A DNA stretch of 64,000 nt from Gammaproteobacteria bacterium (lineage in GTDB: Bacteria > Gemmatimonadota > Gemmatimonadetes > Longimicrobiales > Gaopeijiaceae): contig JAPPMM010000049.1 in NCBI GenBank assembly GCA_028819075.1, positions 62,001 to 126,000 on the forward strand, written 5' to 3'. Position numbers and translations under genes: made by a program. The notes beneath the pieces were generated by a model that saw only the letters and a list, made by a program, of their open reading frames with translations, searched no databases and was not told the origin of the DNA. Below are positions 16,316-35,459 of the stretch, piece after piece (position 1 is the first letter of the stretch; every line of letters starts with the position of its first letter).

Positions 16316-17608
16316 ATGACTTCCCTCCGGCCGGTCCGACCGGCACAAACCGCCGCACATCCGGGACTCTCGGTTGCGGCGCGGCGCGCGCTCGCCAAGT
16401 GTGCCCGCGCGGCCTCGTTCGCAGCCCTGCTGTACGTCCTGACGCTGGTGTCCGTGACCGCAGCCGCCGCCCAGCAAACGGGGACTCTGACCGGCCGCGT
16501 GCTCGAGCATGAGAATTCGCGGCCCATCCCCGATGTCGTCGTGCGCCTCCACGACCTCGGCCTCTCCACCGTGACCGATGCCGACGGGATGTTCCGTTTC
16601 ACGGATGTTCCCGAGGGGGCGCACATCCTGGTGGTGGAGCATCTGGCCTACGGCGACCAGTCGCGGGAAATCGCCGTAAATCCGGGCGAGGATCTGCGTC
16701 TCGATGTGCGCCTTGCGGCGCGAACCATCGAACTCGAGCCCCTGGTCGTGGAGGCGGTCACGGAGCTGGAGCGGAGGCGGATCTCCACCGGCCATTCCAT
16801 CAATGAGGTCGGGCCTGCGCAGCTCAGCGAGGCCGCCCGCCGCGGACTCGGTCTGTCCGAAGTACTCGCGCAGCACCTGCCCGGCCTCCGGGTACGATCG
16901 GGAAGGACCGGCTCGTGCGTCGAATACCGTTCCACGTCGGCGCAAGGTGGGTGCAACGAGGTGTCGGTTTATGTCGATGGAGTCCGCTCGGCGGCGCCCT
17001 CTCTGCTCTACTTCTCGATGCCCCTCGAGGACATCGCGCGCGTGGAGTTGCTGTCGCCCCTGCAGGCGTCGACGCGGTTCGGCATGGCCGCGGGAGGGGG
17101 CGCCCTGCTGGTGGAGACCAAGACCGGTCCGCAGCGCCAGCGCGAGGCCGCTGCCGACAATCTGGTTACCGGCTTCGACTGGTCCCTGGAGGAGGAGCGC
17201 TACGGGTGGGAGCGGGTCTTCGCCAGCTCCTTCGTGGGGAACGCGGTCGGCCTGGCGGTCGGCCTCGGTCTGGCCAACCAATGTCTTGAAATCGATACCG
17301 GCCTCGGGGGCCTGCGCCCGCGCTGCACCGGCATCCTGACGACGGGCACGGGCATCCTGGCGCTCGCGCTGCCCAGCGCGGCCGGAGGCTACTCGGCCGG
17401 GTGGGCCGGCCAGACCGACCGCTCCAAGGGACGCTTTCTCCCCGCCGCGCTCGGAAGCGCCATGGCGGCGACCGCCGGCTACCTCCTGCTCATCGAGGGC
17501 AGGAGCAACGAGGCCCGCTCCGCAGAGACGGCGGGCATCGTCCTGCTGGCGGTGGGCACGCCGCTCATGACAACGCTCGCCGACCGCATCTTCCGCGTAC
17601 TGCGCTGA
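16316..17608 (+). CDS. barrel-less TonB-plug protein with C-terminal hydrophobic segments
   Basis: A 430-residue exported protein with an unusual layout. A signal peptide (about 30-52) is followed by a carboxypeptidase-regulatory-like beta domain (about 55-130; LTGRVLEHENSRPIPDVVVR), then a TonB plug-like domain (about 150-285; VYVDGVRSAAPSL, EDIARVELLSP). Where a receptor would have about 500 residues of barrel there are only 145, with about four hydrophobic, Gly/Ala-rich stretches ending in TLADRIFRVLR. A paralogue lies at 32105-33427 on the other strand, with the same Cys spacing in the plug (CVEYRSTSAQGGC). The function is unknown; it could be an accessory to a SusC-type transporter. The stop is ten bases from the convergent metalloprotease gene. 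Confidence 0.7.
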   Translation: MTSLRPVRPAQTAAHPGLSVAARRALAKCARAASFAALLYVLTLVSVTAAAAQQTGTLTGRVLEHENSRPIPDVVVRLHDLGLSTVTDADGMFRFTDVPEGAHILVVEHLAYGDQSREIAVNPGEDLRLDVRLAARTIELEPLVVEAVTELERRRISTGHSINEVGPAQLSEAARRGLGLSEVLAQHLPGLRVRSGRTGSCVEYRSTSAQGGCNEVSVYVDGVRSAAPSLLYFSMPLEDIARVELLSPLQASTRFGMAAGGGALLVETKTGPQRQREAAADNLVTGFDWSLEEERYGWERVFASSFVGNAVGLAVGLGLANQCLEIDTGLGGLRPRCTGILTTGTGILALALPSAAGGYSAGWAGQTDRSKGRFLPAALGSAMAATAGYLLLIEGRSNEARSAETAGIVLLAVGTPLMTTLADRIFRVLR

Positions 17609-17618
17609 GACGACCCCC

Positions 17619-20267
17619 TCACCACTGCTCGTAGGCGCAGAACGGCACCAGCTTCTCCAGCCAGGTGAGGTCTGCCAGCCCCGCCCGAGCCACGAGGGTG
17701 CCCCCGAGCCCCGTCCCGAATCCGGTCCAGTCCATGGGCGCGCTGCCGATGGGGGCCCCGGGAGGCGCATCGGGCGTCACCAGCGGTGCCCACGGCTCGT
17801 GGGGCCGCTCCTCGAAGCGCCGGATGTCTCGTGCCAGCAGGGCGAAGTGGGCGGCGTTGTGGTCGTCGCCCATCGACCGGCCCTCGGCCGCGTCCCCGAG
17901 CCACCCAAGGTGCTGCGCCGCGACCGCCCTCACCTGGGGCATGGCGGCCGCGCCGGCGAGGCTCATCAGCCCGTCCGCGACCACCCGGCCGATGGCGCGC
18001 CGCACCTCTGCCTCGTAGGGCGAGTCCGCCGCGTTCGGGTCGCCCACCGCCGTGAGCGCGCCGATTACGTCGCCAAGGCCCGGCAGCGACCCGTCGAGCG
18101 CGTTCTGTTCAAGCAGGCGCGCCGCCCTGCTGGGCTCCAGCACCTCGCCCACCACGTGGGCGCTCGCGACCACCGCCGGCGACACCGCGTCGAACATCGA
18201 CCCCGTGTAGCGCGGGAAGAGCTCGCGGGTGCGTCCGTAGCCGGCGGGCCGGGGCGGCAAATCGTCCAGAACCTTCGCCGGGATGGTCAGTTCGGCCGGC
18301 TGCAACGACCGCACCAGCGCGTCCAGCGCCCGCTTCTGCTCGTCCGCCGAGGCCGACCGCACCGGTTCCAGTCCGTCGCCGCGTGTCGCATAGGTGTAGT
18401 GCATCCCGCCCAATACCGAGGCGGCGGCGGTCACCTGGTAGCGATGGTGCATGTAGAGGGGCACCAGCACCTCCTCCATCTGCGCCATCGGCATGCCCTT
18501 GCGGATCACGCGCTCGCCGAAGCGGTCCATGGCCGCGCGCCGCACGTCGAGCATTCGGTCGAGCTCGGCTCCGGCGTCCGTCCCGTTCGACCACTGGTCG
18601 ACCCGCGCGTGCGCCGAGGCGTCCTGGCCGGTCAAATAGCGGACATCCTGCTCCCACGCCTCGTCCAGGATCCGGTTTAGCTCCGCGGTCTCGTCCGTCC
18701 CGGGCGGGAAGTCGGAGTATCCGTACCGGATCGCGACCTTGTCCCACTCGCCGATGTCGGTGTCGTACACCTCCGAGTAGTCGAACTCGCTGCCGTCCCA
18801 GGTGATCAGCGGATGGGGGTAGTCCAGCACCGAGATGCGTCCGACGTCGCTGTCGTAGTAGTTGTGCCCCAGCCCCAGCGTGTGCCCCACCTCGTGGGCC
18901 GACAGCTGACGGATGCGCGCCAGCGCCCACTCCGCGATGTCCTGCACGTCCTCATCGCCGTTCTCATAAGGCGCCAGCAGCCCTTCGGCGATCATGTAGT
19001 CCTGGCGCACCCGCAGCGAGCCCAGGGTCACGTTTCCCTTGAGGATCTCGCCCGTGCGCGGATCGGTGATCGAGCCCCCCGTGCTCCACCCGCGCGTCGA
19101 CCGGTGCACCCAGTTGATGACGTTGTAGCGCACGTCGTGGCTGCTCACGTCTTCGGGCCGGATCTCCACCCGGAAGGCGTCGATGAAGCCGGCCGCCTCG
19201 AAGGCCTGGTTCCACCACCGCGCGCCGTCCAGCAGCGCGGATCGGACGGGTTCCGGCGTCCCGGGATCCAGATAATAGACGAGCGGCTCCACAGGCTCGC
19301 TCATGGCTGCGGTCGGATCGCGCTTCTCCAGGCGGTGCCGGCGGATGAAGCGCTGGGTCATGGGCTCGTCCAGCGCTGCGGAGTAGTCCTGGAAGGACAT
19401 GCCGCCGTAGCCGGAGCGGGAGTCGTGCGCGCGGGGCGTGTATTCGCCCAGCTCGGGCAACTGGATGAAGGAATGGTGCATCCGCACCGTAGCCGCGCCG
19501 GCGTTGGCCGCGACATTGCCGACCCCCTCGAAGGCGCCACCCCCGCCGCCTCCGAAGCGGCCGCCGGCCATCCCTCCGTCCTGGCGCACGAAGGTCAGCG
19601 ACGCCTCCATCTCCGTGTTCTCGGGGAAGTTCATCACCATCGGCAGGTAGACTGCGCTCCGGCTCTGGTCCAGCCGGTAGGTGCCCGGCCGCAGGCGTCC
19701 AGCGAAGCCGGCGATGTCCTGCAGCAGGAAGGGCGTGAAGTCGATCAGCACGCGGTCGCCGGTCTGCGCGGCCGCGTCAAAGCCCCACAGCGTGGAGGGC
19801 GCGAAGGCGTCCTCCACCGCTTTCCGCTCGGCGGCGTTGTCGCTGGATGCGCGGAAGCGGTAGTTGGGCTGGATCATCAGCACCTTCGGGCCCACGCGAT
19901 GGAAGCGCACCACGCGCGAACCGGCCAACTGCCCCCGGTCGATGCCGATGTCGTTCGACCCGAGACCCGCACCGATCCCGGAGGCGTGCAACACGTCGGT
20001 GTCCCACTGGGCGATTTCCAGCCAGATCCTGCCGCCGGCATCATCCCAGTACATGGGCAGGAAGCCGTCCATGAGCTCCATCGAGCCGGTTCTGTCTTCG
20101 ATGGTGGGCAGCGCGTCGTCGCTCTGACGATTCTGCGCAGCCGCCGTGCTCGATACCAACGCGGTCGTGAGCAGGGTCAGCGCAAGCGCAATGCCCAGGT
20201 CTGTCCACTTCCTTGTCATCGCCGAGATCGGCGTGGTCGTCGCTTGTCTCATCCCCTTTCTCCTCAT
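17619..20267 (-). CDS. zinc-dependent metalloprotease, exported (DUF5117/DUF4953 type)
   Basis: An 882-residue secreted protease with a Sec signal peptide (hydrophobic core near 24-40, AAAQ cleavage site). The metzincin-like motif HEVGHTLGLGH places zinc ligands at His458, His462 and His468, with catalytic Glu459. Its layout, with an N-terminal beta-rich region, a central catalytic domain and a helical C-terminus, fits the bacterial family annotated as zinc-dependent metalloprotease with DUF5117 and DUF4953. It is preceded by GGGGAGG eight bases before the ATG at 20267. Its likely role is degradation of proteins outside the cell or in the periplasm. It ends ten bases from the convergent plug protein gene. 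Confidence 0.87.
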   Translation of the reverse strand: MRRKGMRQATTTPISAMTRKWTDLGIALALTLLTTALVSSTAAAQNRQSDDALPTIEDRTGSMELMDGFLPMYWDDAGGRIWLEIAQWDTDVLHASGIGAGLGSNDIGIDRGQLAGSRVVRFHRVGPKVLMIQPNYRFRASSDNAAERKAVEDAFAPSTLWGFDAAAQTGDRVLIDFTPFLLQDIAGFAGRLRPGTYRLDQSRSAVYLPMVMNFPENTEMEASLTFVRQDGGMAGGRFGGGGGGAFEGVGNVAANAGAATVRMHHSFIQLPELGEYTPRAHDSRSGYGGMSFQDYSAALDEPMTQRFIRRHRLEKRDPTAAMSEPVEPLVYYLDPGTPEPVRSALLDGARWWNQAFEAAGFIDAFRVEIRPEDVSSHDVRYNVINWVHRSTRGWSTGGSITDPRTGEILKGNVTLGSLRVRQDYMIAEGLLAPYENGDEDVQDIAEWALARIRQLSAHEVGHTLGLGHNYYDSDVGRISVLDYPHPLITWDGSEFDYSEVYDTDIGEWDKVAIRYGYSDFPPGTDETAELNRILDEAWEQDVRYLTGQDASAHARVDQWSNGTDAGAELDRMLDVRRAAMDRFGERVIRKGMPMAQMEEVLVPLYMHHRYQVTAAASVLGGMHYTYATRGDGLEPVRSASADEQKRALDALVRSLQPAELTIPAKVLDDLPPRPAGYGRTRELFPRYTGSMFDAVSPAVVASAHVVGEVLEPSRAARLLEQNALDGSLPGLGDVIGALTAVGDPNAADSPYEAEVRRAIGRVVADGLMSLAGAAAMPQVRAVAAQHLGWLGDAAEGRSMGDDHNAAHFALLARDIRRFEERPHEPWAPLVTPDAPPGAPIGSAPMDWTGFGTGLGGTLVARAGLADLTWLEKLVPFCAYEQW

Positions 20268-22486: not shown

Positions 22487-22614
22487 GGTGGATTGTCGGC
22501 GCCCCGGTCGCGGGCGTCAACGCCGGTCGCGCGGCGCTGCAGTGGCCGATCCATCGTTGCCGGCCCAACGGTGACAGGATTAATGTTGTGGGAACCTCAA
22601 TCAGCCCGCTGCCG

Positions 22615-23130
22615 ATGAAGCCGAATCACTACTTTCGACACCTCGCCGCCGTCCTGGTGCTCTCCACCACCACCGGCTGCTTCAACTACGTGCCCACCGA
22701 GATCGGAGCGGTGCCGCCCGGCGAATCGGTGCGGCTGTTCCTGACGCGGGCGGGCGTGGACGCGATAAACGAGGCCGGCAACGAGGATGCGCTGAACACT
22801 TTGTTCGAGCCCGTGCTCTCCGGTGAGTTCGTGCGCCGGACCGACGCCGACTTTTATGTGCGCATCCCCACGGTTCGGCGGCAGGTGGGCTTCCACAGCT
22901 CGCAGTTGGGGCAGGATATCCGGGTTCCCGCGGGCGAGATCGTGCAGATCGAACGCCAGGAGCTCAGCCGGGCGAAGACGGGCGCGCTGGTCGGGGGTAC
23001 CGCGGCCGTCATCACCGGGCTCATCGTCTTCATCCTGAACGATGCCCGTCAGCCCGACGCGATCAACCCACCCGTTGACACGGTGGAGGATCGCGGCCGC
23101 CGCGTCTTCACCATCCGCTTCGGAGGCTGA
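22615..23130 (+). CDS. SusC/D-associated lipoprotein of unknown function, copy 1
   Basis: A protein of about 171 residues with a lipoprotein signal (LSTTTGC, Cys22 from the ATG at 22615; a GTG at 22588 is an alternative start). The mature part has VPPGESVRLFLTRAGV, a beta-rich middle and IVQIERQELSRAKTGALVGG. A hydrophobic Gly-rich segment (VGGTAAVITGLIVFIL) follows near the C-terminus. The protein at 33540-34019 shares this plan and several motifs, and it also lies next to a SusC/SusD pair. Here it directly precedes SusC, with a 206-base gap that contains a candidate promoter. I do not recognise a named family. Confidence 0.68.
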   Translation: MKPNHYFRHLAAVLVLSTTTGCFNYVPTEIGAVPPGESVRLFLTRAGVDAINEAGNEDALNTLFEPVLSGEFVRRTDADFYVRIPTVRRQVGFHSSQLGQDIRVPAGEIVQIERQELSRAKTGALVGGTAAVITGLIVFILNDARQPDAINPPVDTVEDRGRRVFTIRFGG

Positions 23131-23193
23131 CGAGCGCCGAATCCCACCTTTCGGCCCGCCAGTTCGATGGCTGTACCAAGGCGGCCTTGTAGC

Positions 23194-23223
23194 TTGACGG
23201 CAGGGGCTGCTGTCGCCTACTCT
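23194..23223 (+). promoter_or_regulatory. candidate sigma-70 promoter for the SusC/SusD operon
   Basis: TTGACG (23194-23199) and TACTCT (23218-23223) are separated by 18 bases, close to the consensus -35/-10 arrangement. The ATG of SusC follows about 110 bases later, with CGGAGG just before it. Confidence 0.45.
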
Positions 23224-23336
23224 GCTAGGTTGTAGCTGATTGTGTCATCGCAAGGCCGCGCCAGTACGGCGTGGCGGGTTGCGGAGGCATGCCAGAACAC
23301 GACAACACTTGTGTGTTTCCCTCAACGGAGGATGTC

Positions 23337-26303
23337 ATGAGCAATCGAAGGTTCGTACTCACAACCACCGCGCGAACCAAGGGGTGGCGGCGCGCCCTGG
23401 TCGTGCTTCCGGCGCTCCTCCTCGCGGCGGCACTGCCCGCGGCGGCACAGGAGCCCGGACGGGTTACCGGCCAGGTAACGATGGAGGGCTCTGGAGCACC
23501 GCTCGGTGAGGTCCAGATCTTCCTGACCGACACCGGCGTCGGAAGCCTCACCCGGCAAAACGGGCGCTACGTGCTGCTCAACGTCCCCCCGGGCAGCTAC
23601 GAGATGCGTGCCGAGCGCATCGGCCTGGGCTCGTCCACGGCGCAGATCACCGTGGCCGCCGGCGAGACCGTGGTGCAGGACTTCACACTCACCGAAGAGG
23701 CGCTCGGCCTCGACGAGATCGTCGTGACCGGCACGGCCGGCGCGGCCCGCCAGCGCGAGATCGGCAACACCATCGCGCAGATCAACGTGGCCGAGGTGCC
23801 CGACCGTCCGGTGCTCGTATCCGACATCCTGCAATCGCAGGCACCGGGACTGGAGGTATACGGGGGCGGCGGCGTCGGCCAGGCGAAGATCATTCGCCTG
23901 CGGGGCGCGAGCAGCGTGGAGCTCTCCAACCACCCGCTCATCTACATCGACGGGGTGCGCATGCGCAGCGACCCGCTGCCGGATGCGAACCCGCCGGATC
24001 GTCGTGGCGGCCGGAGCGGCAACATCGCTGTGAGTCCGCTCGACAACATCAATCCCAACGACATCGAGCGCATCGAGGTCATCAAGGGATCGGCGGCGAC
24101 CACCCTGTACGGCACCGAGGCCTCCGCGGGCGTCATCCAGGTCTTCACGAAGCGTGGCTCGGTCGGAGCTCCCGTGTGGACGGCCGAGGTCAAGGCCGGA
24201 AGTGCCTGGAGCCGCAAGTTCGGCGTGGACACTCCCGGCGCCGACCCGTACATCAACATGGGTCCTTGGATCTGCACCGGGCCGTTCAGCTGCGGCGAGT
24301 ATCATCCGGGCTCGCCCTTCACGCTGGACTACTCGCTCTCCGTCAGGGGCGGTAGGCAGGACCTCCAGTATTTCATCTCGGGCGGCTTCCTGGATGAACA
24401 GGGCTACATGACGAATGACAGCCAGAAGAAGTACCATACTCGCGCGAACTTCACGATTACGCCCGCAAACAATCTGACCATCCAGTGGAACACGGCGTAC
24501 GCGGCCAACGCCCTCACGATGACCAACGGGCAGAACAACGCCCAGGGCATCACCCTCAACGCCTTCCGGGCGGAGAGGAACTACTTCGGTACCGGCGATC
24601 CCGCGGTCCTCAACGAGCTGATGGACCAGCAGCTCAACCAGGATGTCGAGCGGCTCACCACTGGCGCCACAATCACCTATGCGCCCTTGGAGAGCCTCAC
24701 CAACCGCTTCACGGTCGGGTACGACTTCTCGACTCAGGAGCACCGCAACCTGCGCCCCTACGCGTGGAGGCAGGTACCACAGGGAGCGTTGCTCAACAAC
24801 ACCTTCCAGAACCGCGTCCTTTCCTTCGACTACGTCGGGACCTACAGCTTCGACCTGACGTCCTCGATCAGTTCGAACTTCTCCTGGGGCGGCCAGGCCA
24901 CCGGCGACGATGACCGCCTGGTTGAAGGCTTCGGTGAGAACTTCCCCGGCGCCGCCGACCCCACCCTCGAATCCGCCGCCCTCACCCAGGCCCACGAGGC
25001 GCGCTCCAAGATCTGGAATGCCGGCTTCTTCTTCCAGAACGTCTTTGACGTTGCAGACCGCTATTTCATTACGGTGGGAACGCGCGTCGACGGCAACAGC
25101 GCCTTCGGCAAGGGCTTCGGGCTCCAGGTGTACCCCAAGGCGAGCGCGTCCTGGATCATCTCCGACGAAGGGTTCTGGCCGGATCTGGGCGAGTTCAAGC
25201 TGCGCGCCGCCTACGGCCAGTCCGGCCGTGCGCCCGGCGCCTTCGACGCCGTGCGTACCTGGACCCCGGCCGGTCTGGCCGGCGTACCGGCGTTCGTACC
25301 CGCGAACGTGGGTAACGACGAGGTCGGTCCGGAGGTCACCGAAGAGATCGAGGCCGGATTCGACGCGTCGTGGCTGGGCGACCGGCTCACCACCACCTTC
25401 ACGGCCTATCGTCAGACCACCAACGACGCGCTCCTCGATGTCCCCCAGATTCCTTCCACGGGCTTCACCAATAGCCAGCTCACCAACATCGGCAGGATCC
25501 AGAACCAGGGGATCGAGGTTGAAATGGGCTTGACGGTGTTGGAATCGGCCAACTGGGGAGTGGACATTGGCGGGTCGTTGACCACCAATCACTCCAAGGT
25601 GCTGGAGCTCGGCATTCCGCCGACCAGTTCCCTGCGTATGGACTGCGGACCGAACGGTGACGAAGGATGCCCGCTGAGCAACCGGCGGGACCTGATGGTC
25701 AGAAACCCGGATGAAATCGCGGCGCCCAACTACTGCCTCGACCGGGTCTGCACCGAGTCTCAGGCGATCTTCAACGAAGATGCGGTGAACTATGGCCCCA
25801 ACCTGCCGACCACGTTCATCGGCGGGAACATGACGGTCCGCGCGCCGGGCAACATCACCCTCTCCGCCAACGGCGAGTTCAAGGGCGGCTTCTACATGAA
25901 CGAGGCCGTCTGGTCCATCAGCCGGAGCGTCCGCTCCCACCTCTGCTTCCCGTGGTACGTGAACCCGCAGAGCTCGATCGAGTTGAAGCCGGACACGCCG
26001 GCCCTCTTCCGCGCCCGCTGTAATCCGCGTGAGGGCGAGGGCTACATGTGGAAGGGCGACTTCTTCAAGCTGCGCAGCGTGAGCGCTACCATTCCGGTGG
26101 ACGCCGTGTTCCCGGAGAGAGTGAGCAACGCGACCTTCACGCTCGCCCTGCGCAACTCGTACCTGTGGCGGAAGGAGATGCCGTTCATGGATCCGGAGTT
26201 GACCGGTGATCCCACGGGCGGTCAGAGGCAGTTGGGGTATAACTTCGAGGAGTCCGTGCCGGCGCCGATCACGCTGCACGCATCCCTCCGGATCACGTTC
26301 TAG
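23337..26303 (+). CDS. SusC/RagA-type TonB-linked outer-membrane transporter, copy 1
   Basis: A 988-residue TonB-dependent transporter of the SusC type. After a signal peptide (about 1-38) comes a carboxypeptidase-regulatory-like domain (GRVTGQVTMEGSGAPLGEVQ; NGRYVLLNVPPG). EIVVTGTAG is the TonB-box-like segment; the plug follows (IDGVRM, NPNDIERIEVIKG, TLYGTEASAGVIQVFTKRG) and then a 22-strand-type barrel ending in LHASLRITF. It imports large nutrients across the outer membrane with the SusD lipoprotein, encoded 12 bases downstream. The start at 23337 follows CGGAGG. The substrate cannot be told; no glycan-degrading enzyme lies beside it. A lipoprotein gene upstream is the likely third member. 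Confidence 0.93.
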   Translation: MSNRRFVLTTTARTKGWRRALVVLPALLLAAALPAAAQEPGRVTGQVTMEGSGAPLGEVQIFLTDTGVGSLTRQNGRYVLLNVPPGSYEMRAERIGLGSSTAQITVAAGETVVQDFTLTEEALGLDEIVVTGTAGAARQREIGNTIAQINVAEVPDRPVLVSDILQSQAPGLEVYGGGGVGQAKIIRLRGASSVELSNHPLIYIDGVRMRSDPLPDANPPDRRGGRSGNIAVSPLDNINPNDIERIEVIKGSAATTLYGTEASAGVIQVFTKRGSVGAPVWTAEVKAGSAWSRKFGVDTPGADPYINMGPWICTGPFSCGEYHPGSPFTLDYSLSVRGGRQDLQYFISGGFLDEQGYMTNDSQKKYHTRANFTITPANNLTIQWNTAYAANALTMTNGQNNAQGITLNAFRAERNYFGTGDPAVLNELMDQQLNQDVERLTTGATITYAPLESLTNRFTVGYDFSTQEHRNLRPYAWRQVPQGALLNNTFQNRVLSFDYVGTYSFDLTSSISSNFSWGGQATGDDDRLVEGFGENFPGAADPTLESAALTQAHEARSKIWNAGFFFQNVFDVADRYFITVGTRVDGNSAFGKGFGLQVYPKASASWIISDEGFWPDLGEFKLRAAYGQSGRAPGAFDAVRTWTPAGLAGVPAFVPANVGNDEVGPEVTEEIEAGFDASWLGDRLTTTFTAYRQTTNDALLDVPQIPSTGFTNSQLTNIGRIQNQGIEVEMGLTVLESANWGVDIGGSLTTNHSKVLELGIPPTSSLRMDCGPNGDEGCPLSNRRDLMVRNPDEIAAPNYCLDRVCTESQAIFNEDAVNYGPNLPTTFIGGNMTVRAPGNITLSANGEFKGGFYMNEAVWSISRSVRSHLCFPWYVNPQSSIELKPDTPALFRARCNPREGEGYMWKGDFFKLRSVSATIPVDAVFPERVSNATFTLALRNSYLWRKEMPFMDPELTGDPTGGQRQLGYNFEESVPAPITLHASLRITF

Positions 26304-26315
26304 GGGAAGGACACA

Positions 26316-27686
26316 ATGAACATCAAGAAAGCATTCCGGAGTGCTGCCCTCCTGGTCACCGTCTTCGCACTCTCGGCGTGCGAAGTCATCAACCCCGGTC
26401 CCATCCAAGACGAGTTCCTGGTCCGCGAGGAATCGCGCGAAGGGCTGGTCAACGGGTCCCAGCGCAGGCTGAACGAAGGCATCGGCTGGATCGGATACAC
26501 GGGGGCGCTCGTAACCCGACAGATCATGCCCGGAGGCCAGACCGGCGCCTATGGGCATAACGTACTGGAGCAGGGAGGCTTCCTTCAGCCCGGTGGGAGA
26601 GGCGGCCAATTCAACGACGCCCAGCAGGGCCGCTTCATCGCCGAGACGGCTCTCAAGCTGTTCGCAGAATCGGAAGATCCCGTTGACTCGGAGATCGTCG
26701 CGCAGGCGAACGTCTGGGCTGGATTCTCCAACCGGCTGCTCGGAGAGAACTGGTGCGAGGCGGTCATCGATGGATCGGAGTTGCTCCCCGGATCGGACTA
26801 TCTGAGGCGGGCCGAAGAGCAGTTCAGCGCGGCGTTGGCCCTGAATCCCGGCGAAACCCTGAGGATGGCGGCCACTGCGGGCCGTGCCTCAGTGCGCGCC
26901 TTCCTGGGTGACTGGGGTGGTGCGGCGTCGGACGCCGGAGCCGTCCCCAACAGCTTCGACTACTATGTGGCGTCGGACGCAAACGTGGCCGCCACGCGCA
27001 ACACCATAATGTGGGCCAACGGCAGGCAGCCATATCTCGCCTTCACCATGTGGAACACCTACTACGGACCGCAGCCCGACATGGCGGCCGGCGGGGCGCC
27101 CATCCGCGCGTCCGGCTACTATCAGGAAACCGGGGATCCGCGCGCGGAGTGGTTCGAGGATCCCAACTTCCCTTGGTCGAACGCCTCGCTCCTGGGATAC
27201 GGACAGACTCCCTGGTTCAACCAGACCAAGTACGACGATCCCAACGACGGCTTCCGGGTGGCAAGCGGCCGCGAGATGCGCCTCATCGAAGCCGAGGCCC
27301 AGTTGTCGAACGGCAACTGGCAGGCGGCGATGACCACCATCAACAACCTGCGCGCCACCTACACCACCAACGAGACCATGCTGCATCCGGGTGGCATGCC
27401 GCTGGAGCCGCGGGATGCGATGAGCCTGGAAGGGGCCTGGACGTACCTCAAGCGGGAGCGGGCGATCGAACTCTTCCTGGAGGCGCGCACGCTGGGTGAC
27501 CAGAGGCGCTGGGAGGAGAACAACACGCCCGGCGACCTGGAGCTGCCCGACTTCGAGCGTATCTCCGAGATTTTCAGCGACAACGAGCGCGGCACCCTCA
27601 TCAACAATCAGGCGCGCCTCTGCTTCGACGTCCCCAACTCGGAGCGCGAACGCAACCCCAACATCCCGGAGCTCGGCGGCACCTGA
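26316..27686 (+). CDS. SusD/RagB-type substrate-binding lipoprotein, copy 1
   Basis: A 456-residue surface lipoprotein: the signal ends in ALSAC (Cys22), followed by EVINPGPIQDEF, a motif also found after the lipid Cys of the second SusD in this window. The rest is helical with TPR-like pairs and carries the conserved C-terminal segment SLEGAWTYLKRERAIELFLEARTLGDQRRW typical of RagB/SusD proteins, reported here as a long conserved block near residues 370-400. It caps the SusC channel and captures substrate. It starts 12 bases after the SusC stop and is followed by a strong hairpin, so it ends the operon. Confidence 0.9.
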   Translation: MNIKKAFRSAALLVTVFALSACEVINPGPIQDEFLVREESREGLVNGSQRRLNEGIGWIGYTGALVTRQIMPGGQTGAYGHNVLEQGGFLQPGGRGGQFNDAQQGRFIAETALKLFAESEDPVDSEIVAQANVWAGFSNRLLGENWCEAVIDGSELLPGSDYLRRAEEQFSAALALNPGETLRMAATAGRASVRAFLGDWGGAASDAGAVPNSFDYYVASDANVAATRNTIMWANGRQPYLAFTMWNTYYGPQPDMAAGGAPIRASGYYQETGDPRAEWFEDPNFPWSNASLLGYGQTPWFNQTKYDDPNDGFRVASGREMRLIEAEAQLSNGNWQAAMTTINNLRATYTTNETMLHPGGMPLEPRDAMSLEGAWTYLKRERAIELFLEARTLGDQRRWEENNTPGDLELPDFERISEIFSDNERGTLINNQARLCFDVPNSERERNPNIPELGGT

Positions 27687-30691: not shown

Positions 30692-30730
30692 TGGGCCGCA
30701 GCCCTCCTCTCGCCAGTGACGACGGATTTC

Positions 30731-32011
30731 ATGTCTCCCGAGCACAGGATTCTGCCAAGACATCTCACCGCCGAACTGGAGGACGCGCTGACCTGCTCGC
30801 GCGTGGTGAACATCACGGGTGCCCGTCAGACCGGAAAAACAACGCTCGTTCGGGACATCATGCGCGCCGGAAGATTCATCACGCTCGACGACGCCACGAC
30901 GCTCGAGGCAATCGAGAACGATCCCTGGGAAGAGCTGCGAGCCTTGCGCGCCGACCTCGAGGATGCGCCGCTGATCATCGACGAAGCCCAACGCTCCACC
31001 CAACTCCCGCTGGCCATCAAGCGAATCGTGGACCTCAGTGACCTTCCGGGGCAGTTCGTCATCACCGGGTCATCCAACATCTTCACCACGTCCCACGTAA
31101 CGGACTCGCTTGCCGGCCGGCTCCTGACGCTGCGGTTGTGGCCGATGACCGTGGCCGAAACGATGTCGCGCGGCCCCTCGACGATCCTCGACTGGGCGAT
31201 CTCGAGAGCGCCGGACCTGGGAGAACTGCCGGCCCCGCGAGTCCTCAGCCGACAGGCCTACATCGATATGATCCTGCGGGGCGGCTACCCCGGAATCCGG
31301 AATCTCAAACGCCGCGGGCGGCAGAAGATCTACCGCGACTACGTCCATACGATCGTGGACCGCGATGTCGCCGACATCGTTCGGGTCCGCAAGACGGACG
31401 CCTTGAGGCGTCTGATCGACCAGTTGGCCATCCGCACCGCATCGGAACTCAACATCGCGGAGCTGTGCTCGCTCATCGGAGTGCGGCGAGGCACGGTCAA
31501 CCAATACCTTGACGTGCTCCTGCGGCTGTCGCTGATCGTAAAGCTGGGTGCTTGGACCTCCGGAGAGTCCGGCCGCGAGATCAAGAACGCCAAGTATCAC
31601 TTCGTCGATACCGGGATGGCGGCGGCTCTCAGACATCTCACCACACGTTCGTTCGGGATCGATGGCCACCCCGCCGCGCTCGGCGGCCTGGCGGAGAGCT
31701 TCGTCTTCGCGGAGATCATCCGCTCGGCGGCGCATCAGGAAAACGACTTCCGATTCCACCACTGGCGCGACCAGCGTGGGCGCGAGATCGACATACTCGC
31801 GGAGAGTGCGTTTAACATCGTCGCCATGGAGGTCAAGGCATCGTCCGCGGCGCGCCGGGCCGACTTCAAGCATCTGGATTGGTTCGCTACCCAGGGCCCA
31901 GGCAGGACGCGAACGTTGACGTCGATTCTCTTCTATTTCGGCGAACGAAAACTATCCTTCGGCAACCGCCGGTATGCATTGCCCGTGAGCTGCCTCTGGG
32001 GTGCTTTCTGA
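30731..32011 (+). CDS. AAA+ ATPase with DUF4143 domain
   Basis: A 426-residue cytoplasmic ATPase. Walker A is GARQTGKTT (30-38), Walker B LIIDEAQ (81-87), and ITGSSN supplies the sensor. The C-terminal DUF4143 half has a helix-turn-helix-like middle (NIAELCSLIGVRRGTVNQYL) and a nuclease-like stretch with EIDIL and AMEVKAS, the spacing of a PD-(D/E)xK core. The family is widespread and accessory, and its function is unsettled. Neither start has a good ribosome site; ATG 30731 is chosen over GTG 30716. The five-fold repeat just upstream suggests autoregulation by this protein. Confidence 0.85.
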   Translation: MSPEHRILPRHLTAELEDALTCSRVVNITGARQTGKTTLVRDIMRAGRFITLDDATTLEAIENDPWEELRALRADLEDAPLIIDEAQRSTQLPLAIKRIVDLSDLPGQFVITGSSNIFTTSHVTDSLAGRLLTLRLWPMTVAETMSRGPSTILDWAISRAPDLGELPAPRVLSRQAYIDMILRGGYPGIRNLKRRGRQKIYRDYVHTIVDRDVADIVRVRKTDALRRLIDQLAIRTASELNIAELCSLIGVRRGTVNQYLDVLLRLSLIVKLGAWTSGESGREIKNAKYHFVDTGMAAALRHLTTRSFGIDGHPAALGGLAESFVFAEIIRSAAHQENDFRFHHWRDQRGREIDILAESAFNIVAMEVKASSAARRADFKHLDWFATQGPGRTRTLTSILFYFGERKLSFGNRRYALPVSCLWGAF

Positions 32012-32104: not shown

Positions 32105-33427
32105 TCAGCGCAGCGCCCTGAAAACGCGGTCCGAGACCGTGGTCAATAGTGGTGTGCCCACCGTCAGCAGCACCACACCTGCCACCTGGGACGAGGTGGA
32201 GGCGTCCCTCTCGGCCCCGACGACGAGGAGGTAGCCCGCGACGACCGAGAGCCCACCCATGAAGGCCGCCGGTAAGAGCCTCCCCCGAGACCGTTCGGTT
32301 GCCCCAGCCCACCTGGCGGCAAACCCGCCGACGAGGCTTGGAAGCCCGAGAGCGAGGAAGCTCGAACCGTACGTCGTGAGGCCATTACACCTCGTGTCGA
32401 CCTCGAGCAGGCCGGACTCCTTCAGCTGCAGGCATCGGTTCACCGCGATCAGACCTAATCCCAGCCCTGCCGAACTCCCCACCAGCGAGCTGGTGAAGAC
32501 CCGCTTCCAGGGGTACGGCTTCGATTCTTCCGACCAATCGGCTGCCGGCTGTGCCGCTCGGGCCGCAGTCATCTGACGTTTCCCGGAGCGGGTCTCGACG
32601 AGCAGGACTCCCCATCCACCAGAGAGGCCGTAACGGGCTCCGGCCTCCGCCGCGGAAAGCATCTCGAGACGCTCGATATCACTGAGCGGCATGGTGGGGA
32701 ACAGGAGACTGGGGCTCGATACCTGGACTCCATCGACATAGACCGCGACTTCACGGCAGATCATGCCGCTCGCGACTGCACGGTACGCCACGCAGTCCCC
32801 CGAGGCGCCCCCACCGCGCACCACGGTGCCCAGCATACCCTGTCTCAGCAGATCCGTGAGGCTCAGGCCCCGCCTGGAGGCTTCGTCGATCTCCTCTCTC
32901 GAGATCTCATTCATGGAGTGGCCCGTGCTCTGTCGCCGCTCTTCGAGCTCGCTCCGTCCCTCGACGAGGAGGGGGTCCAGTGGAATAGCCGTTGTCTTCA
33001 GCCGAAGGTTGAGACGAAGTTCGATCCCGTCCTCCACGACGACAGCGTGCAGGTACTGCCCGTAGGCCACATGCTCGACGAGCACGACCTGGGGACCTGC
33101 CGGGACGTCAGATAACTGGTAGCGTCCTTGCTCATCGCTCAGCGCCGCCGCTCCCGACGCCCGGAGCTGGACGACCGCGTCAGCCACTGGAACACGCGTC
33201 TCGACGTCGACCACCCGTCCCGAGATCGAGCCGGTCTCCTGGGAGCTGAGTTGCAGGGGGAGCGCTGATAGCAGGATGGACAAGACACAGGCGGCGTTGG
33301 TGCGCACGCGCCCCGTTCGAGGCCGACGGTTCGGCGCGATTGTCCCAGAGCGAGACCGCCCCAGGGGGCGTCGCGAAACGAGGGCCCACGTCCTCATCAG
33401 GGGACAATCGCTTGCAAGACAGTCCAT
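32105..33427 (-). CDS. barrel-less TonB-plug protein, copy 2
   Basis: A 440-residue paralogue of the protein at 16316-17608. The order is signal peptide (about 42-62), carboxypeptidase-regulatory-like domain (SISGRVVDVETRVPVADAVVQ), plug-like domain with STGHSMNE, a Cys pair (CVAYRAVASGMIC) and VYVDGVQVSSPSL, then about four hydrophobic stretches ending in TVSDRVFRALR. No barrel follows. It lies 112 bases downstream of the SusC-SusD-lipoprotein run on the same strand and is probably the last gene of that cluster. The start is uncertain: ATG 33427 and ATG 33397 both lack a good ribosome site. Function unknown. Confidence 0.68.
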   Translation of the reverse strand: MDCLASDCPLMRTWALVSRRPLGRSRSGTIAPNRRPRTGRVRTNAACVLSILLSALPLQLSSQETGSISGRVVDVETRVPVADAVVQLRASGAAALSDEQGRYQLSDVPAGPQVVLVEHVAYGQYLHAVVVEDGIELRLNLRLKTTAIPLDPLLVEGRSELEERRQSTGHSMNEISREEIDEASRRGLSLTDLLRQGMLGTVVRGGGASGDCVAYRAVASGMICREVAVYVDGVQVSSPSLLFPTMPLSDIERLEMLSAAEAGARYGLSGGWGVLLVETRSGKRQMTAARAAQPAADWSEESKPYPWKRVFTSSLVGSSAGLGLGLIAVNRCLQLKESGLLEVDTRCNGLTTYGSSFLALGLPSLVGGFAARWAGATERSRGRLLPAAFMGGLSVVAGYLLVVGAERDASTSSQVAGVVLLTVGTPLLTTVSDRVFRALR

Positions 33428-33539: not shown

Positions 33540-34019
33540 CTAGTATATCACCTCGTCACCTGTTTCATCGAGTATTCCTCCCTTGCTGTCGCCCCACATG
33601 AAGTGCACGAACAAACCGGTGAGCGCTCCAACGAGGACAGTCGTCACGGCTGCGGTCTTCCTCCGGTCGAGGACCCGTTCCTCTATGCCTTGGATCTCAT
33701 CCCGTCCGATGATGATCCGCTGTTGTAGGTACGGCGATCCCAAGCCGTTCTCAAACCGATTCGTCGACTCGTGCCGCGAGAGCAGGTGTAACTGCCTCCC
33801 TGCGGCTTCGACCACTTGTCCCTCGACGGTGCTTCGAGCATCGCCCAGGCTGACCGTAAGGCGCGCCACTCCGGGAGGGGTCAGGTGTGCGCGAACCGTA
33901 GTGCCAGGTGAAGCCGCGTCAGGGGCGATCGCCCGATAAGAGTGACAGCCCGAACTCGCCGCAAAGCAACCCACCGCGAGTATAACCGAGACCAGCTTTG
34001 AGCCGATCCTTGCAGCCAT
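33540..34019 (-). CDS. SusC/D-associated lipoprotein, copy 2
   Basis: A 159-residue lipoprotein (lipobox AASSGC, Cys25) with the same plan as the protein at 22615-23130. A GTTVRAHLTPPGVARL segment near the N-terminus is followed by DEIQGIEERVLDRRKTAAV and then a hydrophobic Gly-containing stretch (VLVGALTGLFVHFM). It starts 12 bases after the SusD stop with AAGGTAGG upstream, so it belongs to the SusC-SusD operon. Finding it with both SusC/SusD pairs argues for a role in assembly or gating of that transporter. This is an inference from position and similarity. Confidence 0.7.
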   Translation of the reverse strand: MAARIGSKLVSVILAVGCFAASSGCHSYRAIAPDAASPGTTVRAHLTPPGVARLTVSLGDARSTVEGQVVEAAGRQLHLLSRHESTNRFENGLGSPYLQQRIIIGRDEIQGIEERVLDRRKTAAVTTVLVGALTGLFVHFMWGDSKGGILDETGDEVIY

Positions 34020-34031
34020 CGTCGCCTACCT

Positions 34032-35459
34032 TCAGCCGCGGAAGTTATCGGCAATATTGTTATTCGTTTCAATCTCACGCTGCGGAATCGGGATGCAAAC
34101 GTCCTGCTCCCGACTCACGCCGTGCCGTTGCGCGACCTCCTCCGGGATAAACTCCAGGGGGTGTAGCTCGCCCGGCGTGCCCTGCTCCCTCCAGCGGCGC
34201 AGATCCCCGATGCGTCTCCCCTCCATCCACATCTCTATGGCCCGCTCTCGCTTGAGCCACTTCCAGGCCGACTCCAGATCGGTAATCGGGAAGGGTTCGA
34301 GCGGCGTGCCACCCTCGTGGCCGCCACCGTGTACGCTCGTGTTCTCGGTGATCAGCTCGGCCCTGCGGCTGTTGATGATGTCCCTCGCGGTCTGCCAGTC
34401 ACTCCTAAGTTCAAGGCCCACCTCCGCGATGATGAGCTGCATCTCACGGTAGCTCGTCACAGGGATCGTGAGATTGCGCATCGCCGTCCCGTCCCGGGAG
34501 TCGAAGTCCGTGTAGGCCGCCGGCGTTCTGGGCACGAAGAACTTCAGCGGATACTGGAAGGGGACGTCCCCCCAGGTCAGAGGCCTGGGCGTCTCGCCGG
34601 TGGGGTAGTTGGGGTCGAAGCCCCACGCGGCGCGCGGATCGCCGGTGTCCAGGTAGTACTCGTCGAAGAGAGTCATCCAAGTGGTGATGCCTCGCACGGC
34701 GGCACCGGATATCTGCGTGACCCAATACCAGCTCGGAGAGTTCTCGCTGTAGTAGTGGACGCCCCACTCGAAGCCCATGGGAATCCGCTGCGCGTCCGCC
34801 TCCGCCTCCGCGTAGTTCTGGAGGTGCAGGTGCGTGGACGCCCTCCCGCCGTACGCAGCCATCTGCACATCGCTGCCCGCGGTCGCGATATTCGCCGCCG
34901 AGGTAAACTGGCCGATGGCGCGAGTCAAATGCGTCTTGTAGTCCTCCGGTGGTCCACCGTTAAAGACGGCGTGGCACATGTACTCGCCCAGGATCCGGTT
35001 CGCGTAACCGGTCCAGAGGTACATCTGGGCCAGCAGCTCGTTGGAGGACGCCGCAGAGCCGAGAACGGCCTCCACACGCTCGATGGCCTGCTCGCCCACC
35101 CAACGAGCCTGTTGCAGCTCCCCGAATCCGGCTTCCTGGTCCCCAATGTCGACCGGGGATCCAGGCGAACCGGCGCTGCCGATCTCGTACTCGTGATTGA
35201 GATTCGTGTCGCCCGCAGGCTGGATCTGACGGGCCCGCGCGTCGCCGCTCTCGGCGAAATCCTCGAACCCGTTTGCGAGCGCGCGCTCGATGCCGTTCAC
35301 CAGTGCCAGCCAAGCTCCGGGGTCGTCCGTAGCACTGTCCTGCAGGGGCCCGGGATTGATCACGTCGAAGTCGCATCCTGACAGGCCCAGACAGACCAAC
35401 AACGTCGCCGCGGCCACGCAGCCGGGAAGCGAAACCCCCCTGTGATTTCTCGTAGTCAT
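34032..35459 (-). CDS. SusD/RagB-type lipoprotein, copy 2
   Basis: A 475-residue surface lipoprotein with a lipid Cys in LGLSGC followed by DFDVINPGPLQD, matching the first SusD. The C-terminal segment DLESAWKWLKRERAIEMW and EGRRIGDLRRWREQG is the RagB/SusD signature. It begins 15 bases after the SusC stop and ends 12 bases before the lipoprotein start. It is the substrate-capturing partner of the adjacent SusC. If the SusC frameshift is real, this protein may lack a working channel. Confidence 0.88.
   Translation of the reverse strand: MTTRNHRGVSLPGCVAAATLLVCLGLSGCDFDVINPGPLQDSATDDPGAWLALVNGIERALANGFEDFAESGDARARQIQPAGDTNLNHEYEIGSAGSPGSPVDIGDQEAGFGELQQARWVGEQAIERVEAVLGSAASSNELLAQMYLWTGYANRILGEYMCHAVFNGGPPEDYKTHLTRAIGQFTSAANIATAGSDVQMAAYGGRASTHLHLQNYAEAEADAQRIPMGFEWGVHYYSENSPSWYWVTQISGAAVRGITTWMTLFDEYYLDTGDPRAAWGFDPNYPTGETPRPLTWGDVPFQYPLKFFVPRTPAAYTDFDSRDGTAMRNLTIPVTSYREMQLIIAEVGLELRSDWQTARDIINSRRAELITENTSVHGGGHEGGTPLEPFPITDLESAWKWLKRERAIEMWMEGRRIGDLRRWREQGTPGELHPLEFIPEEVAQRHGVSREQDVCIPIPQREIETNNNIADNFRG

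Follow-up and report, generated by a model that had tools for sequence, protein, structure and literature searches.

A plug domain without a barrel: P1 and a family of proteins with a common four-stretch C-terminus

Introduction

What does a plug domain do in a protein that has no barrel? The question is raised by P1, a protein encoded in the stretch of 64,000 nucleotides that we analysed (hereafter the window), in which a carboxypeptidase-like domain and a plug are followed by four hydrophobic stretches. It bears on SusCD transporters. For Bt1762-63, the passages of a cryo-EM study that deal with gating describe closed, empty transporters without a plug, propose that the SusD lid acts as the seal, and call the reset unclear (PMC7782687); the same passages describe the SusC N-terminal extension as having no known function. 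A natural protein in which the N-terminal extension and the plug come without a barrel, and which is often encoded near SusCD, offers a handle both on pore sealing and on the function of the extension.

Results

Architecture of P1 and its paralogue P2

P1 is organized as follows:

16316..17608, + strand: P1 (signal-like segment, CarboxypepD_reg, Plug and four-segment C-terminal module), 430 aa, ATG start
16316..16477, + strand: export-signal-like N-terminus, residues 1-54, with a near-neutral dN/dS of 0.5-0.97
16484..16750, + strand: carboxypeptidase regulatory-like domain, residues 57-145 (Pfam)
16787..17104, + strand: Plug domain, residues 158-263, with invariant Cys201 and Cys213 (Pfam and family alignment)
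17174..17605, + strand: C-terminal module, residues 287-430, with four hydrophobic stretches, Cys323 and Cys337, a G-x-T-x-x-S-x-G loop and a DRxFRxLR tail

Because the first 54 residues evolve near-neutrally, the true start may lie downstream of the annotated one. P1 shows homology to SusC-type receptors over their first ~270 residues. Three Pfam matches exceed the cut-offs: CarbopepD_reg_2 (residues 58-145, E 1.2e-14), CarboxypepD_reg (residues 57-133, 2.2e-14) and Plug (residues 158-263, 3.1e-07). The first corresponds to the carboxypeptidase-like N-terminal extension of SusC/TonB-dependent receptors, and the plug domain of these receptors is likewise detected by Pfam (E 3.1e-07 for P1, and 7.3e-09), while no model of the C-terminal β-barrel (PF00593) matched in P1. 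The VYVDGV and ARVELL motifs are residues 218-223 and 241-246, respectively; a degenerate DNA pattern for VYVDGV has two matches in the window, one per paralogue, with 0 expected from shuffles. Past the plug, hydrophobicity reaches maxima at residues 301-319, 337-355, 375-393 and 408-426. Two of the cysteines (201/213) are located in the plug, and two (323/337) lie around the loop that joins stretches 1 and 2.

The paralogue P2 closes a same-strand run in the order SusC, SusD, lipoprotein, P2:

35475..38291, - strand: SusC-like TonB-dependent receptor that has both plug and barrel; the run begins with it (Pfam)
34032..35459, - strand: SusD-like gene (PF07980, 3.7e-08)
33540..34019, - strand: small lipoprotein-like gene, oriented like P2 and immediately upstream of it; no Pfam or NCBIfam match
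32105..33427, - strand: P2, a paralogue of the same plan, 440 aa (Pfam and alignment)

P1 and P2 are 44% identical over the full length and 48% in the C-terminal part. The earlier note had described a plug without a barrel joined to four hydrophobic segments, with Cys pairs kept in the paralogue at 32105; Pfam, hydrophobicity and the presence of both motifs confirm this plan in P1, P2 shares it, and both Cys pairs align between them. A third copy in the genome has the same ending (G000:C17:20803-21984).

P1 starts 120 bp past a gene for a MATE exporter, which is found upstream of P1 orthologues in 5/5 genus loci scanned. The nearest receptor is 5.7 kb away, and no SusD lies within 5 kb. A DUF5117/DUF4953 met-zincin protease gene (window 17619-20267) converges on P1 and is also kept beside it in the five genus loci; an AAA_14/DUF4143 ATPase gene (30716-32011) converges on P2. 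Between P1 and P2 (window 22588-27686) lies a second SusC-SusD pair (23271-26303 and 26316-27686), immediately preceded by a small lipoprotein-like gene; the receptor of this pair groups in a clade of receptors that adjoin plug-TM genes elsewhere, plug-TM being our name for the family of P1.

One family with a common ending

Nine sequences were used to build a profile covering ~150 C-terminal residues. It matched in 47/116 genomes of the window's family-level group, covering 20 of 40 genera, and in 31/298 genomes sampled from the phylum Gemmatimonadota, one of which is outside that family. With a 46-row C-terminal profile and up to 9 candidates scored per genome, matches were obtained in at least 42 of 395 phylum genomes: 39 from the same family, 1 from another family of the class and 2, both weak, from another family of the order. 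In the loci collected, the search with the C-terminus alone that the earlier note had proposed yields 71 distinct frames. In all of them the module is the last domain, followed by 0-24 residues; in 70 the carboxypeptidase/plug part ends 6-28 residues upstream of the module, and in none of the 71 is there a barrel between the two. Some members have long open frames, in which the extra length precedes the carboxypeptidase part and does not separate the plug from the module. In some divergent members the plug falls below Pfam detection (L117, L129). The genome profile searches returned no full-length barrel homologue bearing the C-terminal module, which the earlier note had named as a finding that would overturn its reading.

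A tree was built from 45 carboxypeptidase/plug regions, 14 of them from family members. One branch, with a support of 100/99, separates these 14 from the other 31 plug rows, which come from receptors and other barrel-less plugs. The plug-TM proteins have a single origin. When P1 is compared with six orthologues, dN/dS is 0.08-0.11 in the carboxypeptidase/plug part and 0.08-0.20 in residues 287-430; both halves of the mature protein are under purifying selection. The claim that P1 is not a simple truncated receptor is borne out by the ending common to 71 matches, the single clade and these ratios.

Orthologues 91-99% identical to P1 occur in the MAG records L001, L003, L004 and L009, which are labelled Gammaproteobacteria. 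Other relatives are MAGs labelled Gemmatimonadetes or BD2-11 clade, and the Gammaproteobacteria labels are probably mistaken.

Changes in the plug

For conservation, 68 of the 71 matches were aligned over the module and 63 over the full length, the rows left out being incomplete. The mature protein has exactly four cysteines, at P1 positions 201, 213, 323 and 337, in all 63 full-length members. By comparison, 0/27 receptor rows have a cysteine at position 201 or 213 (L027, L140, L141 and L145 are counted as receptors that are cut by locus ends), and one of the four barrel-less rows outside the family has a cysteine at position 201. The plug Cys pair brackets the loop that links the strand with R205 at its end to the YVDG strand; this loop measures 10-24 residues, a variation in length such as a recognition loop might show. 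Arg205, Asp221, Gly256 and Gly262 each reach 100% of the weighted family alignment.

The Ton box of Bt1763 reads DEVVVTG, and in the passages on this element its mutants are described as growing on levan as poorly as a SusD deletion (PMC7782687). A VTG-type Ton box is present in 27/27 receptor rows and in 0/63 plug-TM members; in the latter the corresponding stretch contains Pro in 57/63 and Glu in 54/63. The canonical Ton box has been lost throughout the family, and for this reason canonical engagement of TonB by plug-TM is doubtful.

The C-terminal module

Modeled alone by AlphaFold from 11 input sequences, the C-terminus folds into four helices at a weak pLDDT of 58.6. The full-length model from the same input (pLDDT 46.7) is unusable and draws strands between residues 372 and 412. 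A search for solved folds like the C-terminal model gave no match with E <0.001, the model being too weak for such a search to mean anything. The hydrophobicity of stretch 1 has a helical periodicity (p 0.017); that of stretch 4 reaches p 0.07, stretches 2 and 3 are not significant, and strand periodicity is significant in none of the four. Periodicity of conservation does not separate helix from strand. Gly, Ala or Ser make up half of the residues in stretches 1 and 2, and the mean best KD of the four stretches in the 68 aligned members is 1.4-1.6, whereas the neighbouring MATE has TM segments with a mean KD of 1.9. Positive charge prevails in loop 2-3 in 59/68 members and in the tail in 65/68; loop 1-2 is negative in 35/68, loop 3-4 in 49/68, and the segment preceding stretch 1 in 48/68. 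The last residue of the family consensus is Arg.

No Pfam family accounts for the module: the 46 members scanned gave weak matches to varied, mostly helical membrane or glycine-zipper families, none of which drew more than 5 members. A search of PDB sequences with the C-terminus returned a designed repeat protein as its sole match (E 0.0084), which gives no family. Two stand-alone secreted proteins, L177 and L178, from two genomes of the same order, match the module profile with E values of 2e-8 and 8e-7. One of them scores 23.7 bits, compared with a maximum of 10.4 over 2000 composition shuffles (1621 of which reported a score); since it outscores all shuffles, the module may also occur independently. 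When this protein was used to search the phylum, four weak matches were obtained in frames that looked unrelated.

Gene neighbourhoods

Context was sampled in 40 stretches with 43 members, drawn from the 71 distinct matches; those left out are mostly same-genus copies and short contigs. Within 5 kb, 19 of the 43 members have a SusD-like gene, 20 a receptor and 18 both, and several contexts end at contig ends. About 1.15 members with SusD would be expected at 2.1 PF07980 hits per Mb, a comparison in which the members are related and the observed and background counts come from different searches, so that a binomial value calculated from them is no true probability. The other 24 members, including P1, have no SusD within this distance.

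Three arrangements recur. In the first (L103-L107, L112), SusC, SusD and plug-TM share one strand, and a small gene begins no more than 47 bases downstream of plug-TM or overlaps its frame. Exceptions are L105, near which neither SusC nor SusD is seen, and L103, whose contig ends early and shows only SusC; at L104 plug-TM comes first, followed by the small gene, SusC and SusD. In the second, a 12-locus cluster (3 loci checked by Pfam), plug-TM is accompanied by a di-haem oxidoreductase gene and in most cases lies next to SusC-SusD. The third is an 8-locus subfamily without SusCD; it has a DinB-like gene (checked in 2 loci), joined in most loci by a large beta-propeller protein (checked in 1). 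As both P1 and this subfamily are without SusCD nearby, the SusCD association belongs to part of the family only.

SusC-SusD loci that hold plug-TM together with a di-haem oxidoreductase are L114, L116, L117, L120, L124, L108, L123 and L126; the first five add an erythromycin-esterase-like or PepSY_TM gene (checked by Pfam in L117 and L120), and loci of their type are perhaps concerned with iron or redox-linked uptake. Across the window's own genome, a plug lies just upstream of at least 45 of 47 barrel hits (the PF07715 list misses P1 and P2). Both hits without a detectable upstream plug fall in one gene, G000:C45:141245-142978, the only such gene found in the genome.

Discussion

We are highly confident that plug-TM is a real family of barrel-less plugs whose ending has no Pfam model and looks like a helical anchor. 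As to its role, we put forward tentatively that a SusC-derived plug has taken on a new role as a periplasmic binding domain stapled by a disulfide, an outer-membrane accessory to SusCD-like uptake; within this explanation, and just as tentatively, plug-TM would be a lineage-specific family with a SusC-type receptor's N-terminal half as its ancestor. After export, the carboxypeptidase-like and plug domains would fold in the periplasm, where a Cys201-Cys213 disulfide would staple the receptor-type loop between the Arg205-ending strand and the YVDG strand. The C-terminus would form a Gly/Ala-rich four-helix bundle and probably serve as an outer-membrane anchor; if that placement is right, a helical anchor would be unusual there. 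The plug-TM protein may then bind SusC/SusD or a substrate. We consider it rather improbable that the plug held by the helical outer-membrane module is a spare one, independent of TonB, that docks below the SusC barrel or inside it once TonB has pulled the barrel's own plug out; the spare plug would seal or reset the pore, or check what leaves, and a second gate of this kind for SusCD transporters is no less speculative.

The export signal and the conserved cysteines suggest that the plug is periplasmic. Unlikely, though the strongest of the alternatives, is an anchor of four helices in the cytoplasmic membrane that holds the periplasmic plug as a sensor or signalling domain for a transporter or regulator. 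It is consistent with four hydrophobic stretches with a mean best KD of 1.4-1.6 in the 68 aligned members and with the MATE gene kept upstream of P1 orthologues. The standard topology, if the plug is periplasmic, would make the invariant cysteines of loop 1-2 cytoplasmic and place loop 2-3 and the tail, both positive, outside, contrary to the positive-inside rule; the stretches are also less hydrophobic than the MATE TM segments. The outer membrane fits better than the inner one because of the charge pattern, the low hydrophobicity and the second invariant Cys pair, and it, or another non-cytoplasmic setting, avoids both conflicts, which is an argument from rules of thumb. A short β-barrel or β-hairpin in the outer membrane, which the earlier note had set against its own reading, is disfavoured and in our view quite improbable. 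The strands of the very poor full-length model point to it; the four helices of the C-terminal model and the helical periodicity of stretch 1, with strand periodicity in no stretch, point the other way, so that the evidence is mostly helical if weak. A barrel-type C-terminus is also expected to end in an aromatic residue, and the consensus ends in Arg.

The remaining alternatives return to the receptor itself. Were plug-TM to supply its plug in trans to a plug-less barrel, retention of the plug fold and of the four fully conserved residues Arg205, Asp221, Gly256 and Gly262 would be understandable. We rejected this split receptor as very improbable: each of the 11 neighbouring receptors in the tree set is equipped with a carboxypeptidase and plug part of its own, nearly all barrels of the genome bring their own plug, and plug-TM is devoid of the canonical Ton box. 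A truncated or decaying receptor gene would account for the homology of P1 to the first part of SusC-type receptors and is scarcely credible in the face of a single clade with dN/dS of 0.08-0.21; the C-terminal module common to 71 matches refutes it.

Comparison with known systems

No Pfam model names the plug-TM architecture, and no paper on barrel-less plug proteins was found in the literature searched, which was mostly open-access. The small-residue-rich helices recall glycine-zipper outer-membrane proteins (PF13488, PF05433) such as SlyB, which are also exported; matches to the two models are few and weak, in 3 and 1 of the 46 members scanned, respectively. The stand-alone proteins L177 and L178 resemble the module in a signal-like start, Gly-rich hydrophobic stretches, a Cys pair and an HDSKG loop, and differ from plug-TM in having no plug; their homology to the module is suggestive only.

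Since several barrel-less plug domains occur in the same genome, such domains are not new as such. These proteins (for example C52:96706-96990, C49:138743-139009 and C52:76568-76828) share the carboxypeptidase-like and plug part with plug-TM. In contrast to it, they end just past the last plug strand, none has the C-terminal module, and some are smaller and lipoprotein-like; in the tree, the barrel-less plugs L029, L142, L028 and L147 fall outside the plug-TM clade. Further examples from the genome are L140:1173-2156, L142:874-1683, L144:905-1762, L145:1324-2058, L149:507-1697, L141:1176-1787 and L143:1196-1690, and one of 327 aa repeats the second half of the plug.

The closest known system is the SusC/RagA receptor (TIGR04056, PF07715, PF13715), with which P1 shares the N-terminal extension and the plug, the best NCBIfam hit (3.4e-17) spanning residues 57-275. 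At 62 bits against a cut-off of 368, P1 differs from these receptors in having neither a barrel nor a canonical Ton box, and in carrying instead a putatively stapled plug loop and a four-segment C-terminus.
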